Source: an uncultured bacterium (lineage in GTDB: Bacteria > Cyanobacteriota > Vampirovibrionia > Gastranaerophilales > Gastranaerophilaceae). From it: DNA of 64,000 nt. Shown in pieces: positions 16,296-62,369 of the stretch. Position 1 is the stretch's first letter. Every line of letters starts with the position of its first letter. The translations under genes and the position numbers were made by a program. Location of the stretch: assembly GCA_949290355.1 (NCBI GenBank), contig CASERN010000008.1, positions 1 through 64,000 on the forward strand, in the 5' to 3' direction. The notes below the pieces were generated by a model that was given only the letters and a program-made list of their open reading frames with translations, was not told where the DNA came from and did not search any database.

Positions 16296-16364
16296 AAGAC
16301 CAAAAATTATTGACACTTGCAAAAAAATGAAATAACCTTTATAATTATAAAAAAGGAGTTTTTT

Positions 16365-17108
16365 ATGGAAAGAGACAAGAAGCTAAGAATCGCCCCCCCC
16401 CCCGAAAAGTCAGATATAGCAAGCATTTCAGAGGTAAAGTTTGATATTAAAACAAAAACAAGTTATAATAGTGATGTTATGAATCACAATTATAAAAAAA
16501 GACGAGCTTTTACTTTAGCAGAAGTGCTAATCACTATAGGAATTATAGGAGTTGTAGCAGCCCTTACGATTCCAACTATCATTACAAAATATAGAAGACA
16601 AACAGTTGAAAATAAACTAAAGAAATTTTATTCTGTTGTCAACCAAGCCATACAAATGTCTATTGCAGAACATGGACAAATAGATTTTGAGAATCAAACA
16701 ACCGGAACAAACGATAATTCTGAATATATCACTAAATGGTATAATGAATATCTTACCAAATATATGAAAAATATTGAAAACGAAAAAGTTGGTCAAGATT
16801 ATTATAAGGTATCCTTTACTGATGGCACGGGGTTTAATTCATACCTAGGTTCAAACAACGTTTTATACATATTCTATTGCCTGAATTTTAGTAGTTGTGC
16901 ACTTGGGCATTATAATGGAAAAGATCAATTTTTATTTACATATAGCCCAAAACAACAAAAAGTAGCTCCCGCATATTCAGGGGAAAATATAAACGAGTTA
17001 AAAAATAGATGTTACAATGCATCTAATGAAGGATCACGTTGGCATTGTGCAGCACTCATTGAAGCAAACGGCTGGAAAATCCCTGATGATTACCCTTACA
17101 TAAGATAA
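16365..17108 (+). CDS. Prepilin-like protein with long leader and C11 tract
   Basis: The frame encodes a type IV pilin-like N-terminus: KKRRA|FTLAEVLITIGIIGVVAA, with predicted prepilin-peptidase cleavage after Ala, conserved Glu5 of the mature form and a hydrophobic helix. About 190 residues of pseudopilin-like globular domain with several Cys follow. AAAAGGAG (16351-16358) supports the ATG at 16365, giving an unusual leader of about 47 residues containing RIAPPPEK encoded across an 11-C run. An in-frame ATG at 16479 (MNHNYKKRRA) would give a canonical short leader and lies just after an internal promoter. The arrangement is duplicated at 33638. The family is sure; the start and role (minor pilin or secretion pseudopilin) are open. 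Confidence 0.85.
   Translation: MERDKKLRIAPPPEKSDIASISEVKFDIKTKTSYNSDVMNHNYKKRRAFTLAEVLITIGIIGVVAALTIPTIITKYRRQTVENKLKKFYSVVNQAIQMSIAEHGQIDFENQTTGTNDNSEYITKWYNEYLTKYMKNIENEKVGQDYYKVSFTDGTGFNSYLGSNNVLYIFYCLNFSSCALGHYNGKDQFLFTYSPKQQKVAPAYSGENINELKNRCYNASNEGSRWHCAALIEANGWKIPDDYPYIR
16393..16403 (+). repeat. Poly-C(11) homopolymer within prepilin gene
   Basis: Eleven consecutive C residues lie in codons 10-13 of the long form, in strongly AT-rich DNA. Such tracts slip during replication, and a change of one or two bases would frameshift the 38-codon extension away from the pilin. The same C11 with flanking GAAAAGT is found at 33666-33676. Confidence 0.9.
16441..16469 (+). promoter_or_regulatory. 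Predicted internal promoter of prepilin gene
   Basis: -35 TTGATA (16441-16446), a 17-bp spacer and a perfect -10 TATAAT (16464-16469) lie inside the reading frame, 9 nt before the in-frame ATG at 16479. Transcription from here would give a nearly leaderless mRNA for the short prepilin. An identical -35/17/-10 layout is at 33714-33742, although the residues encoded around the -35 differ. Confidence 0.55.
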
Positions 17109-27243: not shown

Positions 27244-27272
27244 TTGACATGATTTTTCCCTTATTTTACGAT
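27244..27272 (+). promoter_or_regulatory. Promoter of B12-controlled unknown operon
   Basis: Perfect -35 TTGACA (27244-27249), a 17-bp spacer and -10 TACGAT (27267-27272) on the plus strand. The start would fall near 27280, at the 5' edge of the second riboswitch. Only 17 bp separate its -35 from that of nrdDG. Confidence 0.7.
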
Positions 27273-27279
27273 TTTAATA

Positions 27280-27424
27280 TAGAGGGAATGGAGTGAATAT
27301 CTCCAGCTGTGCCGCAACCGTAAAAGCCGGAATACTCAGAAAAACTTGTATACTGCGAGCATCGGTATGTAAGAAATAAATTTTCTCAGTTGTCCTCTTT
27401 AGATATAAAACAAGAGGATTTTTT
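27280..27424 (+). ncRNA. Cobalamin riboswitch controlling 27425-30194 operon
   Basis: The plus strand has AGGGAATGGAGTGAATATC, CCAGCTGTGCCGCAACCGTA and AAGCCGGAATACTCAG, the conserved elements of a cobalamin aptamer in order. A terminator hairpin TCCTCTT/AAGAGGA (27393-27418) with a T6 run ends one base before the ATG at 27425. Its 3' arm is also the ribosome-binding site (AGAGGA). One structure can thus block both transcription and translation when B12 is bound. Recognised from conserved sequence; the fold was not computed. Confidence 0.9.
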
Positions 27425-28123
27425 ATGTCCCTTACAGCAGTAAATACAAATAGCGCAAAAATAGGTACTTGTCCTCACGGGCTGCCGCTCGGAGCATGTC
27501 CGATTTGTAACGGAATGAGCGGTGGCGGAGGTGCAAAAAAAGCTGATTTTTCTGCAAAGCCAGGCGAAATGAGTTGGAATGAATGTGCTGCAATCGGAGC
27601 TTTTTTAAAAGCTCAGCAACAGGCAAAAGCACAAAGGCAGGAAGATGCTCTAAATTATGCAAAAAATGTACAGGCTTTTCAAAATGCTCTAATGAATTCA
27701 AGCCAAAAATTAGCAAATATTGCCCAATTTTTTTCGAATAATACTCCTGCAATAATTGCAAAGCCAATAAATTTCGTATTAAATACCGTATTAGGCAACA
27801 TAACAAAAGCAATTGCAAACCTTCCAACAACTATCTCAAATGTAATACATACAATTCAACAGAGACTTGCTGATATTTCAGATAAACTTACAGCAATGAT
27901 GGGAGAATTGAAAGCATCTATAGAAAAGAAAATATCGGAATCTTTCAAAGAAATTAAAAAGAAAATAAAATCAATATTCTCAATATTTCAAACATCAGAT
28001 TCAGACAATGAAGATAAACAAATAGATGAAACTAAAAAAGCTTTTGAATTAAGAACTTTCATACACAACTTATATAAAAAACTTACAGAAACTGAAAAGG
28101 ATTTAGAAGAAAATGAACGTTAG
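27425..28123 (+). CDS. Unknown Cys/His-motif protein, first gene of B12-riboswitch operon
   Basis: Unrecognised 232-residue protein. The N-terminus has GTCPHGLPLGACPICNGM, giving Cys16, His18, Cys25 and Cys28, a plausible metal site, then a Gly-rich turn and PGEMSWNECAAIG with Cys54. Residues 60-110 are Gln/Ala-rich helix, residues about 90-150 are amphipathic to hydrophobic helices, and the C-terminal 80 residues are charged coiled coil. There is no signal peptide. The riboswitch 5' of it implies a link to B12 or cobalt, or a function replaceable by a B12 enzyme. It overlaps the next gene by 11 nt. Confidence 0.85.
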   Translation: MSLTAVNTNSAKIGTCPHGLPLGACPICNGMSGGGGAKKADFSAKPGEMSWNECAAIGAFLKAQQQAKAQRQEDALNYAKNVQAFQNALMNSSQKLANIAQFFSNNTPAIIAKPINFVLNTVLGNITKAIANLPTTISNVIHTIQQRLADISDKLTAMMGELKASIEKKISESFKEIKKKIKSIFSIFQTSDSDNEDKQIDETKKAFELRTFIHNLYKKLTETEKDLEENER

Positions 28124-33576: not shown

Positions 33577-33605
33577 TTGACAAAATACTGAATATAATAA
33601 ATAAT
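33577..33605 (+). promoter_or_regulatory. Upstream promoter of second C11 prepilin gene
   Basis: Perfect -35 TTGACA (33577-33582), 17-bp spacer, -10 AATAAT (33600-33605, five of six). The start near 33612 gives a short leader with AGAGGAG before the ATG at 33638. A second, internal promoter lies at 33714. Confidence 0.65.
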
Positions 33606-33637
33606 GAGTATGGTTAAGAAATAAGAGGAGTTTGAAA

Positions 33638-34483
33638 ATGAATACACAAGAAGCTTTCAGGATTGCCCCCCCCCCCGAAAAGTTAAATTATGACTGCATT
33701 TCAAGAGAATGGCTTGATAAATACAAAAATATAAGTTATAATAGTGATGTTATGAATCACTATTATGGAAGAAAAAGAGCTTTTACTTTAGCGGAAGTTT
33801 TAATTACTTTAGGAATTATCGGAGTCGTTGCTGCGATGACTATTCCTACGTTAATCGCTAACTACAGAGTTAAACAAACTGTAACTCAACTAAAAAAAAT
33901 TAATTCTACTTTGCAAAATACTTTTACTTACACAAAATTAAATGATTTTGCAGGTGCAAACGTAAAAGATTGGAATATCAATTATACAGAATTTACAAAT
34001 ATTCTCGCTAAAAACATGAAATCATCTAAAGTCTGTGGACAGAGCAATATAGAAGACTGTTTCCCTAATGTTAACTACAAGAATCTTTCAGGAGAATCAA
34101 ATGTATTACCACTAAGCTCTCTTCAAGGAGGTATAGTACTGAACGACGGGACCTTGCTTGGTCTTGTTTTTAATCCAAATAGTTCAAATGCAAATCTTTC
34201 TGGAGATTTGGGGCAAATATTTGTTGATATAAACGGAATTAAAGCTCCGAATGTATTAGGTAGAGATGTATTTTCTTTTATGATCAGAAATGATAAATTA
34301 ATTGCCAGAAATACACCAACTGAAACTAATTCTGCAGCATTAGGACCTCAAAAATATTGTTCAGTATCAAGCGGTTACGGTCATAATGGTCTTGGCTGCA
34401 CAGCTTGGGTAATTTATAACGAAAATATGGATTATCTGAAATGTGAAGGTTTAAATTGGCATACAAAACTACATTGCGATTAG
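33638..34483 (+). CDS. Prepilin-like protein with long leader and C11 tract (second copy)
   Basis: The 281-residue frame has the prepilin motif GRKRA|FTLAEVLITLGIIGV, then a pseudopilin-like domain with several Cys. AGAGGAG (33624-33630) supports ATG 33638; a TTG at 33632 is less likely. As in the 16365 gene, exactly 38 codons separate this ATG from a second in-frame ATG (33752) that would give a canonical leader, and the extension contains RIAPPPEK over a C11 run. Two stretches (19 and 28 nt) are identical between the genes at DNA level, while the pilin core has diverged at synonymous sites. It may be a type IV pilus or type II secretion component. Confidence 0.85.
   Translation: MNTQEAFRIAPPPEKLNYDCISREWLDKYKNISYNSDVMNHYYGRKRAFTLAEVLITLGIIGVVAAMTIPTLIANYRVKQTVTQLKKINSTLQNTFTYTKLNDFAGANVKDWNINYTEFTNILAKNMKSSKVCGQSNIEDCFPNVNYKNLSGESNVLPLSSLQGGIVLNDGTLLGLVFNPNSSNANLSGDLGQIFVDINGIKAPNVLGRDVFSFMIRNDKLIARNTPTETNSAALGPQKYCSVSSGYGHNGLGCTAWVIYNENMDYLKCEGLNWHTKLHCD
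33666..33676 (+). repeat. Poly-C(11) homopolymer within prepilin gene (second copy)
   Basis: Eleven consecutive C with identical flanks (G before, GAAAAGT after) to the tract at 16393-16403. At length 11 the long frame is open; any change not a multiple of three closes it. Confidence 0.9.
33714..33742 (+). promoter_or_regulatory. Predicted internal promoter of second C11 prepilin gene
   Basis: -35 TTGATA (33714-33719), 17-bp spacer, perfect -10 TATAAT (33737-33742), with 9 nt to the in-frame ATG at 33752. Same sequence and spacing as 16441-16469, in a different local protein context. Confidence 0.55.
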
Positions 34484-46853: not shown

Positions 46854-47597
46854 ATGATTATGAGATTATCAAACATGGGTAAGAATGGGGGTTTTACACT
46901 TGCTGAAGTTTTGATCACTTTAGGTATCATCGGGGTAGTTGCCGCAATGACTATGCCTACTTTGATTAATTCTACACAAGGTGCTCAGTACAAAGCAGCA
47001 TTCAAAAAAGCTTTATCTGCTATTTCACAAGGTGTTACATTAAATGTTGCTTTGGATGGAAGTAGTTTTGCTGATGCAGTAGCAGGCACAGCTGGAGAAA
47101 CAACAAAACCAACTACAGGTGATTCTGTAGCAAGTATTCTTAACTCAAGAATGAATATAGTTAAAGCTGCTACAGCTTCAAATAGCGGATATGGTATGAC
47201 AGGTTCAGGAAGCACTGCAACATCAAGTTTTCCAGGACAAATTACTATAAATACCTGTAACGAGCCAGGTAAAAACCCGGGAGATCAAGGATGCACAGCT
47301 AAAACTGAGAGCATAACTCCAGATACTTTCTTATTCTTTAATGATGGAAGTATGTTTGCCTTTAGTTCTGCAAATGCTGCAGGTTGTACAAGCGACGAAG
47401 TTACAGGTGTTAACAAATGTTCAGGCGTAATTGATGTCAATGGTACAAAGGGACCAAACAAAGTTGTTGCTTGTGATAATGCAAACTCTGACCCTTGCGT
47501 AGTATCAAATCCTACAGATATCTATCCTGTAGAATTTTATGACCAAACAATTTTACCTGCATCAGATGCAGCTAAAGCTGTATTATACGGTAAATAA
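46854..47597 (+). CDS. Type IV pilin-like protein (canonical short leader)
   Basis: The 247-residue prepilin has a leader of about 13 residues ending KNGG|FTLAEVLITLGIIGVVAA, with cleavage after Gly and conserved Glu5. The exported domain is rich in Gly, Ser, Thr and Asn, with Cys pairs (NTCNEPGKNPGDQGC; AAGCTSDE; VACDN...DPC) that may form disulfides. AAAGGCGG precedes the ATG at 46854, and a second ATG at 46860 is possible. Unlike the 16365 and 33638 genes it has no C tract or extension. Expression is probably controlled by the divergent XRE protein. Confidence 0.9.
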   Translation: MIMRLSNMGKNGGFTLAEVLITLGIIGVVAAMTMPTLINSTQGAQYKAAFKKALSAISQGVTLNVALDGSSFADAVAGTAGETTKPTTGDSVASILNSRMNIVKAATASNSGYGMTGSGSTATSSFPGQITINTCNEPGKNPGDQGCTAKTESITPDTFLFFNDGSMFAFSSANAAGCTSDEVTGVNKCSGVIDVNGTKGPNKVVACDNANSDPCVVSNPTDIYPVEFYDQTILPASDAAKAVLYGK

Positions 47598-48470: not shown

Positions 48471-49199
48471 CTATTTCCCAAATCTTCTTTGTCTGTTTTT
48501 GAATTCTTCTACAGCCTTAGCTAAAGAATTTCTGCCAAATTCAGGCCAATATTCTTTTGTTACTAAAATCTCTGAATATGCTATTTGCCATAAAAGATAA
48601 TTTGAAATTCTTTTTTCTCCGCCTGTTCTTATTAATAAATCAGGATCAGGAATTCCTTTTGTATAAAGGTTATCTGATAATGTTTGCTCTGTAATTTCAT
48701 CTATGGATAATCCTTGTGCAACAATATTTTTAACAGCGTGAACAATTTCATCTCTTGATCCATAGTTGAATGCGATTTGAAGATGTACTCCTGTATTGTT
48801 TTTTGTTTTTTCAACTGAATTATTAAGAATTTTTTGTAACTTATCACTCAATTTTGTAGTGTCGCCTATAAATGAAATTACTACACCCTCAGAATGCATT
48901 TCGGCAAGTTCATTTGTAAGTGTAATAGCAAGAAGTTCCATCAAAAAGTCAACTTCTTCTTTTTTACGGTTCCAATTTTCAGTAGAAAATGCATATACCG
49001 TAAGATATTTTATACCAAAATCCTTGCAAGCTCGAAGAGTATTTTTTAAAGCATCCACACCTTTTTTATGCCCCATAGCAGACGGCAGATTTTTTTCTTT
49101 TGCCCAACGTCTGTTACCATCCATAATTATAGCAATATGCTTTAAATTAGTTTCTTTTACTATTTCAGCTGTTGTTAAATCTTTTTCCATTGTTTTCAT
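48471..49199 (-). CDS. uppS: Isoprenyl transferase (undecaprenyl diphosphate synthase)
   Basis: The 242-residue cis-prenyltransferase makes the lipid carrier for peptidoglycan and glycans. It has HIAIIMDGNRRWAKEKNLP with catalytic Asp (about residue 28), GHKKGVDALK, YLTVYAFSTENWNRK and the C-terminal PDLLIRTGGEKRISNYLLWQ. There is no ribosome-binding site, and the -10 ends 7 nt before the ATG, so the mRNA may be leaderless. An in-frame ATG at 49190 is an alternative. cdsA, its usual neighbour, is absent; rdgB follows. Confidence 0.96.
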   Translation of the reverse strand: MKTMEKDLTTAEIVKETNLKHIAIIMDGNRRWAKEKNLPSAMGHKKGVDALKNTLRACKDFGIKYLTVYAFSTENWNRKKEEVDFLMELLAITLTNELAEMHSEGVVISFIGDTTKLSDKLQKILNNSVEKTKNNTGVHLQIAFNYGSRDEIVHAVKNIVAQGLSIDEITEQTLSDNLYTKGIPDPDLLIRTGGEKRISNYLLWQIAYSEILVTKEYWPEFGRNSLAKAVEEFKNRQRRFGK

Positions 49200-60680: not shown

Positions 60681-61505
60681 ATGAAAATTTCCATAGTAAC
60701 AGCAAGTTATAATTATCAAGATTATATAAAAGAAACAATACAATCTATCATAGATCAAACTTATAGCGACTGGGAATTAATTATAGTAGATGATTGTTCT
60801 ACAGATAATTCTGTTAACGTCATAAAATCATATACTGATAATAGAATAAAACTATTTATAAATAAAGAAAATCTAGGACTTGCTCAAACTGTAAAAAGAG
60901 GGATTGAAAAAGCCACAGGGGAATGGATTGTATTTTTAGAAAGTGATGATATTTTAACTAAAGATTATATTGAAAAAAAAGTAAAAATTGCACATAAATA
61001 CCAAAACATAAACTTAATTTTTAATGACTGTGAGTTTTTTGGAGATGAAAAAAAGATTCACAACTTCACCAAAGCATTAAAAAAAACAAGAAAAGTATTA
61101 AAAAATAAAAATTATCCGAGAAATATGTTCTACAATTTTTACTTAAGCAATAAGATTTTTACATTTTCTTCTGTCATGGCTAAGAGGGAAGATTTACTAA
61201 AAATAAATTTCGAACCACCTATAGATAGTCTTTTAGACTGGTGGTTATGGGTCCAAATGGCATATATAGGGGATTTTTATTATATCCCTGAAATGCTTAC
61301 AAAATGGAGACTACATACTGATAGCTATATTTACAAATCAAAACATTTCTCTCCAAAACAATTACAAATGAAAATATATATTGAAATATTTAAAAAAACT
61401 TCAAATATATTGATACTATTATTTATTCCTTTTGCTCAAATTACATGGTGCTTACAACAAATAAAAAAGAATATAAAAAAATCAATCCTTAATAAAGGGA
61501 AATAA
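60681..61505 (+). CDS. Family 2 glycosyltransferase
   Basis: The 274-residue GT-A enzyme uses a nucleotide sugar to extend a surface glycan. The N-terminus KISIVTASYNYQDYIKETIQ and ELIIVDDCSTDNSV are the GT2 nucleotide-binding motifs; the metal-binding motif is LESDD (about 92). A C-terminal hydrophobic stretch (ILILLFIPFAQITWCL) suggests membrane contact. ATG 60681 was chosen over an upstream TTG (60666); neither has a ribosome-binding site. It is convergent with, and overlaps by 24 nt, the RgpF-like gene. Confidence 0.9.
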   Translation: MKISIVTASYNYQDYIKETIQSIIDQTYSDWELIIVDDCSTDNSVNVIKSYTDNRIKLFINKENLGLAQTVKRGIEKATGEWIVFLESDDILTKDYIEKKVKIAHKYQNINLIFNDCEFFGDEKKIHNFTKALKKTRKVLKNKNYPRNMFYNFYLSNKIFTFSSVMAKREDLLKINFEPPIDSLLDWWLWVQMAYIGDFYYIPEMLTKWRLHTDSYIYKSKHFSPKQLQMKIYIEIFKKTSNILILLFIPFAQITWCLQQIKKNIKKSILNKGK

Positions 61506-62369
61506 ATTATTTATCATAATTGCAAATATCTTTCTTAATGAAAATGGTAAACTTCCTAAAACATCAAATATAAATTTTTTAATCAAAAATGGTGTTTTTT
61601 TTGAAATTTCTCTTGGCAGTTTAATTAAATTTTGGGGATAATCTTTTAATAACAATTCATAGTTCTCAATTGTAGTTGAATCAGTATTTCTTAAATCAAA
61701 CAATGATTTTTTCATAAATGGCATATTATAATTTTCAATAATCTGACGCCATTTTAATATCGTTATATTATTTATATTTTCGTAAGCATTAACAAAAGTT
61801 TTATATTTATATCCATTTTCAACAAGCAATTTCGTCAATCCCATTTCATAATTGATAATAATCAATTTTTTGTTATCTTGATGTGTAATTGATTGCATAA
61901 ACTTTAAGAAAAACTCTTTTGTGAAAATATTTTTTTTCAAAACAACAAAATAACTTTGAATATGCGTACACTTTACAAAAAAATGCCTAATATTTTGGTG
62001 ATAACCAAAATTATTTTTAGTAATACCCCAAAAATCACAATCTTTATTATCCATTTCTTCAAATACTTTTTCTAAAGGATGGAAAGGACCATAACAACTG
62101 TCATTTGCAAAAATAACCTCATCATAATCAGATAATTTGTCTTTATAAGATAAAAATCCTCGTTTGTAAGAGCCGAAATCATATTCATCATGTTTCTCAT
62201 CTATAATTAAATCAGCAAGTCCTGACAATACTTCAGGATTTTTTATTTTATTACAAGAAACAAAAACTAATGTATCACAGACTTTTTTAAGTTCTTTAAT
62301 ATAATAAATTACATAATCATCTACAATAAAATCTTTGTCATAATGAGCAAAAAAAGCAATTCTTTTCAT
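61482..62369 (-). CDS. Rhamnan synthesis F (RgpF)-like glycan protein
   Basis: The 295-residue protein resembles the RgpF family linked to rhamnose-glucose polysaccharide synthesis: a start of the IAFFAHYDKDFIVDDYVIYY type, EYDFGSYKRGFLSYKDKLSD and EVIFANDSCYGPFHPLEKVF. These proteins are putative glycosyltransferases. It pairs convergently with the GT2 gene, and together they form a small surface-polysaccharide locus. The family call is good; the sugar is unknown. Confidence 0.85.
   Translation of the reverse strand: MKRIAFFAHYDKDFIVDDYVIYYIKELKKVCDTLVFVSCNKIKNPEVLSGLADLIIDEKHDEYDFGSYKRGFLSYKDKLSDYDEVIFANDSCYGPFHPLEKVFEEMDNKDCDFWGITKNNFGYHQNIRHFFVKCTHIQSYFVVLKKNIFTKEFFLKFMQSITHQDNKKLIIINYEMGLTKLLVENGYKYKTFVNAYENINNITILKWRQIIENYNMPFMKKSLFDLRNTDSTTIENYELLLKDYPQNLIKLPREISKKTPFLIKKFIFDVLGSLPFSLRKIFAIMINNLFPFIKD

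Follow-up and report, generated by a model that had tools for sequence, protein, structure and literature searches.

The DNA analysed here (the window, a 64,000-nucleotide stretch of contig 8 from a gut bacterium that is a cyanobacterial relative) contains two prepilin genes whose upstream regions are built from the same series of parts. Gene A (33638..34483, + strand) encodes a mature pilin that begins with FTLAEVLIT at 33782, and gene B (16365..17108, + strand) one that begins at 16509; both have the N-terminal methylation and cleavage motif of type IV prepilins (Pfam N_methyl PF07963 and TIGR02532), and gene B also matches DUF6613. Upstream of gene A a predicted outer promoter, TTGACA-17-AATAAT (33577..33605), read from the sequence and from paralogues that are arranged alike, precedes a Shine-Dalgarno sequence AGAGGAG and an ATG at 33638 (together 33624..33640), and the reading frame then enters a run of eleven C (33666..33676) whose length (n = 2 mod 3) places this ATG in the pilin frame. 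The corresponding parts of gene B, identified in the same way from sequence, are TTGCAA-17-TATAAT (16317..16345), AAGGAG with an ATG at 16365 (16353..16367) and an in-frame C11 tract (16393..16403). A third prepilin gene in the window (46854-47597, +) lacks a tract; it has a Shine-Dalgarno sequence of its own and a promoter that fits the consensus, TTGACA-17-TATAAT.

Between tract and pilin each of the two leaders contains a second promoter-like sequence, TTGATA-17-TATAAT, followed by an in-frame ATG, as the sequence-only reading had noted; the coordinates and spacing were confirmed. In gene A it spans 33714..33742 (TTGATA 33714-33719, TATAAT 33737-33742) and the ATG is at 33752..33754; in gene B it spans 16441..16469 (TTGATA 16441-16446, TATAAT 16464-16469) and the ATG is at 16479. 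The two genes are identical over 28 nt here (33733-33760 and 16460-16487), and no such match was obtained with shuffled sequences. This block, which has at least five more copies in the same genome, proved to make up the greater part of an inverted repeat: ATAATAGTGAT-GTTATGA-ATCACTATTAT in gene A (33738..33766, covering the -10 and the predicted start site), where the palindrome GTGAT-N7-ATCAC is perfect over 11 bp, and TTATAATAGTGAT-GTTATGA-ATCACAATTATAA in gene B (16463..16495, with one mismatch). The consensus of the whole unit is TGTTATAATAGTGATATGAAACATCAC.

The 1.85-Mb genome holds 51 prepilin matches (L015-L064), 36 of which have a run of 8-11 C or G in the upstream leader, and the number of prepilin matches per genome among relatives in the genus ranges from 7 to at least 150. 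The order of parts in the 36 tract genes is promoter, Shine-Dalgarno sequence, ATG, about 10 codons, tract, and a leader in frame with FTLAEVLIT; in seven of them, the two window genes included, the tract length sets the pilin in frame with the upstream ATG. We examined 160 tract leaders drawn from many genomes (L015-L254). From tract to pilin the pilin frame is free of stops in all 160 and each of the other frames is closed in 158. For 138 of them a tract of n = 2 mod 3 is what an in-frame reading needs (a single leader showed an in-frame stop in this latter count, and its run is distant and spurious). Tract lengths, which were taken from assemblies, range from 7 to 12 across paralogues and species; 131 of the 160 tracts have length 10, the upstream ATG being out of frame in 125 of those, and about 21 of the 160 leaders are in frame. 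A G/C homopolymer of at least nine in a reading frame whose alternatives are closed, with lengths that differ between copies, is the arrangement of a phase-variable gene. The excess of n = 10 possibly reflects genes that are off by default, assembly bias or transcriptional slippage. Outside the inner element substitutions in the leader fall evenly over the three codon positions, so here the frame is kept and the peptide is not.

The slipped-strand phase-variable gene pilC of Neisseria (PMC5953494) shares with these genes a G/C tract within the reading frame and closed alternative frames; here, however, it is the pilin genes themselves that carry the tract, within their leaders and in dozens of paralogues per genome; the majority of these tracts have length 10 and are out of frame, and a promoter-like element is embedded downstream. 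Among the papers searched, none joins Gastranaerophilales with phase variation, and the one that mentions prepilins does no more than list pilus genes. Some leaders depart from the common pattern. L027 (G000:C7:34465-34608, minus strand) is a prepilin copy whose tract is interrupted (CCCCTCCCCC); a TGA lies between its inner element and FTLAEV, and the copy looks silent from either start. A third leader type (L022, L026, L028, L042, L043, L046, L049, L056 and L059) is marked by a conserved segment rich in G+C, GTGTCGGGTCAAGCGGCACGCTTGGG, which contains the inverted repeat CAAGCG-GCA-CGCTTG; these leaders have a possible GTG start and no TATAAT. The leaders of L078, L103, L107, L093 and L143 contain other inverted repeats or repeat-like inserts, all in frame, such as TTATAATTC-N9-GAATTATAA, GTGAGCGAAGCTCAC and a 19-bp repeat in L107.

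Is the inner sequence a promoter, or does it merely resemble one? Promoter statistics were calculated for the window and the fetched stretches. TTGATA-N15-19-TATAAT occurs at 4 sites in the window against 0.41 expected, and in the window's other coding sequence, on the sense strand, a TATAAT preceded at 16-18 bp by a -35 that matches at 4/6 or better was found 3 times in 47 kb; with three look-alikes in that length of coding sequence, two matches in two leaders of ~115 nt are not due to chance. The element typically has its -35 at 16-17 bp, often a TGn, and then TATAAT. A -35 matching at 4/6 or better is present in 91% of element copies and 25% of shuffles, and the -10 column frequencies are T.77 A.98 T.94 A.85 A.74 T.95, with positions 2 and 6 the most conserved. 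Since the -10 columns, the preceding TG and the -35 frequency all match, we read the element as a putative sigma70-type promoter, with hexamers 16-18 bp apart that are conserved beyond what coding would need. The exact hexamer is far from universal: TATAAT is found in 32 of 75 motif copies (~43%) in an unbiased sample, is absent from the inner position in 14 of this genome's 36 tract genes, and is degraded in many C-tract copies to TATACT, CATAAT or AATAAT. An Rfam search returned no family at the inner-element site; elsewhere the window has an AdoCbl-II riboswitch match (27271-27344, +), upstream of the gene at 27425.

The conservation of the element could in principle be that of a peptide motif in the leader, YNSDMKHH, and in favour of this are a frame that is always maintained and a second His conserved at 91%. 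The codons argue strongly against this. The Ser of the element is AGT in 86 of 87 copies (a count that takes in copies fetched by their TATAAT), while AGT makes up 44 of 214 Ser codons (21%) elsewhere in the same leaders; in a sample not chosen by TATAAT, CAC encodes the His of codon 7 in 68 of 72 (background CAC 17%) and CAT that of codon 6 in 58 of 58. In the genes with these fixed CAT and CAC codons the codons of FTLAEVLIT are highly mixed, and between genes A and B this segment shows the synonymous changes that had been remarked on earlier (GCG/GCA, GTT/GTG, TTA/CTA and ATT/ATC). Two element positions vary in residue, as S/G/C/R in NGT codons and H/Y/N/D in NAT codons, and in a neighbouring genus, whose tracts are 9-12 long, the second His is preceded by Y, N, H or D, in every case encoded by NAT, and the Ser is AGT throughout. 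Substitutions in the motif lie mainly at codon position 1, third positions staying fixed, whereas 79% of those in FTLAEV are at position 3. Relatives of the element also occur in noncoding position (L039 and L063). All copies of the element are related and their counts are not independent, though synonymous sites of FTLAEV in the same genes are highly varied. On the codon statistics a protein motif was rejected as the cause of the conservation, and we regard ordinary protein-level constraint as very improbable. As AGT and CAC are fixed against background while residues vary and FTLAEVLIT codons mix, selection is indicated on the DNA; the inner element, judged by its codons, evolves as DNA and not as peptide. 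The earlier suggestion of DNA-level selection for a promoter is thereby supported, through both the fixation of silent sites and the promoter geometry.

Gene conversion between the two window genes, the explanation of the 28-nt identity that the sequence-only reading had named as its refutation, turned out not to be needed. The 7-nt spacer GTTATGA is identical in both genes, as a recent conversion would leave it, but the same spacer is found in other close paralogues of the family, and the identity ends at the edges of an element that is present genus-wide, falling to ~60% on the tract side. A recent conversion is accordingly the least probable of the explanations considered here, and we give it almost no weight. 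The arms of the dyad recur across the genus, and GTTATGA is confined to close paralogues.

The distribution of the palindrome is narrow. This genome has eight exact dyads, all within prepilin leaders, and two relatives have 15 and 12; the reversed pattern yields 0 or 1. With TATANT attached to the dyad, a search of 241 genomes of the order gives about 100 sites, spread over 17 genomes, and almost every site belongs to the window's genus or to a single neighbouring one; a spacer of 6 in place of 7, used as a negative control, gave 1 site in the same 241 genomes. Such a repeat might act in RNA, as a translation-controlling hairpin on the long outer transcript with the internal ATG placed in the loop, and the folds in the window genes are indeed strong (stems of 12-13 bp in both, with z = -5.0 and -3.9 over 46 nt). 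However, among 74 sequences the arms pair no better than when partners are shuffled, only a 5-bp core is conserved, and that as sequence, and changes in the left arm are mostly uncompensated. As a cause of the conservation the hairpin was rejected for want of compensatory changes, and a role in RNA seems to us improbable. Since the core dyad is kept as sequence, its spacer is fixed and pairing is no better than shuffled, the reading that fits best is a regulator site, and the palindrome is most likely a candidate binding site for a dimeric regulator over the predicted start point; it could also have some other use.

Operators of repressors or activators may overlap a -10 and start point. The fixed-spacer dyad, conserved across the predicted start site, resembles these, whereas GTGAT-N7-ATCAC is unmatched to any named regulator. 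The dyad was also sought in other genes, such as that of an autoregulated regulator, and because all eight exact copies in this genome lie in prepilin leaders, they point to no candidate regulator gene.

Which ATG starts these genes? The sequence-only reading joined to the inner promoter a near-leaderless message that begins at the internal ATG as a canonical prepilin start; the DNA-level promoter part of this interpretation stands and the start-codon part does not. The internal ATG is ATT in L016 and ACG in L032, both close paralogues, and is absent from 14 of 79 leaders; exact TATAAT and the presence of the ATG are not significantly associated (p = 0.14). In both window genes it lies 9 nt past TATAAT, and not at the ~6-7 nt of a leaderless start. 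Leaderless bacterial genes have their -10 box ~10-12 bp before the start (PMC3160421), and many tract-bearing sister genes, whose ATG follows TATAAT by exactly 6 nt (TATAAT-AGTGAT-ATG), resemble them in having the start codon at the expected +1, unlike the window genes with their more distant, unconserved ATG. Two non-pilin genes of the window (61482-62369 and 48471-49199, both on the - strand) have TATAAT 6-7 nt before their ATG and no Shine-Dalgarno sequence, and from these it appears that leaderless starts may be in use in this genome. In the tract-bearing genes the general start is, from the arrangement of the leaders, the upstream ATG that precedes the G/C tract: many of these prepilins lack both an internal promoter and an internal ATG, no stop interrupts the pilin frame between tract and pilin, and the shortest leaders (EG, QNTYCSKA, NFVAPKPA and QNVGGSKG) leave no space for an internal start.

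The same losses of the internal ATG, together with the decayed -10 of many C-tract copies, would be expected if the inner element were an ancestral relic, an old prepilin promoter overrun by an extended phase-variable leader and now only coding, with all pilin made from the upstream ATG. A relic should drift as freely as the leader around it does, but the silent positions AGT, CAC and the T at -7 are fixed while amino acids change, and we consider this explanation unlikely, although less so than the other alternatives. A DNA-level promoter inside the prepilin leader is the reading that the conservation supports.

Relatives of the element are also used alone. In five tract-less prepilin genes (L040, L063, L037, L039 and L177) a related element is the only visible promoter. 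In L040 it stands behind a terminator-like hairpin with the upstream frame closed (TTGTAA-17-TGTTATAAT, with a Shine-Dalgarno sequence before MKKYFG); L063 has TTGAAA-17-TGCTAAAAT-AGTAAT-ATG with a stop codon within the -10; and L177, from a relative, has TTGACA-17-TATAAT-AGTGAT-ATG. These stand-alone promoters match the -10 region well and the palindrome in part, and L063, L037 and L177 look leaderless.

Taken together, each window gene is a prepilin gene that probably has one expression unit nested inside another, with a slipped-strand switch on the outside and a regulated promoter within. In the outer unit (promoter, Shine-Dalgarno sequence, ATG, ~10 codons and G/C homopolymer) the length of the tract would decide whether translation stays in frame along the long leader and reaches the pilin. 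Tracts with n = 2 mod 3 are in frame, and the C11 tracts of both window genes are of this kind. The inner unit would be a sigma70-type promoter embedded in frame in the leader and overlapped at its predicted start point by GTGAT-N7-ATCAC, and its transcript would start at or just before the codons of a short canonical prepilin leader. The outer unit would thus be stochastic and the inner promoter and regulator site common to many pilins. Both units could supply one and the same mature pilin, from leaders of 48 or ~10 residues, which may give each gene two separate ways of being switched on. The geometry, the conservation at the DNA level, the kept frame and the stand-alone use of related elements are seen in the sequences, and from them we infer firing of the inner promoter, protein binding at the palindrome and switching of the outer unit by the tract. 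The PilA gene of Geobacter sulfurreducens is reported to yield prepilins with leaders of 10 aa and 29 aa from one pilin gene (PMC6201914, citing Juarez 2009 and Richter 2012). The likeness lies in the pair of short and long leaders, possibly 10 and 48 aa here, the short form being putative; the part of that paper concerned with PilA describes no homopolymer switch or inner-promoter palindrome.

Prepilin genes number up to ~100 or more in these genomes of less than 2.5 Mb, and in many of the genes the leader contains a G/C tract. We suggest, more tentatively than the two nested units themselves and with some doubt, a switch with two layers that operates in dozens of pilin genes in each genome, and in which the tract selects long-leader prepilins and a shared in-frame operator-promoter lets one regulator drive the short forms together; random pilin choice and coordinated control would then reside in the same stretch of DNA. 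The locus offers an example of a putative promoter that is concealed when the longest open frame is read and exposed by silent-site conservation. If the inner promoter works, one stretch of DNA would be peptide, promoter and operator at once, and stochastic pilin choice could be joined to coordinated control in common, poorly studied gut bacteria.
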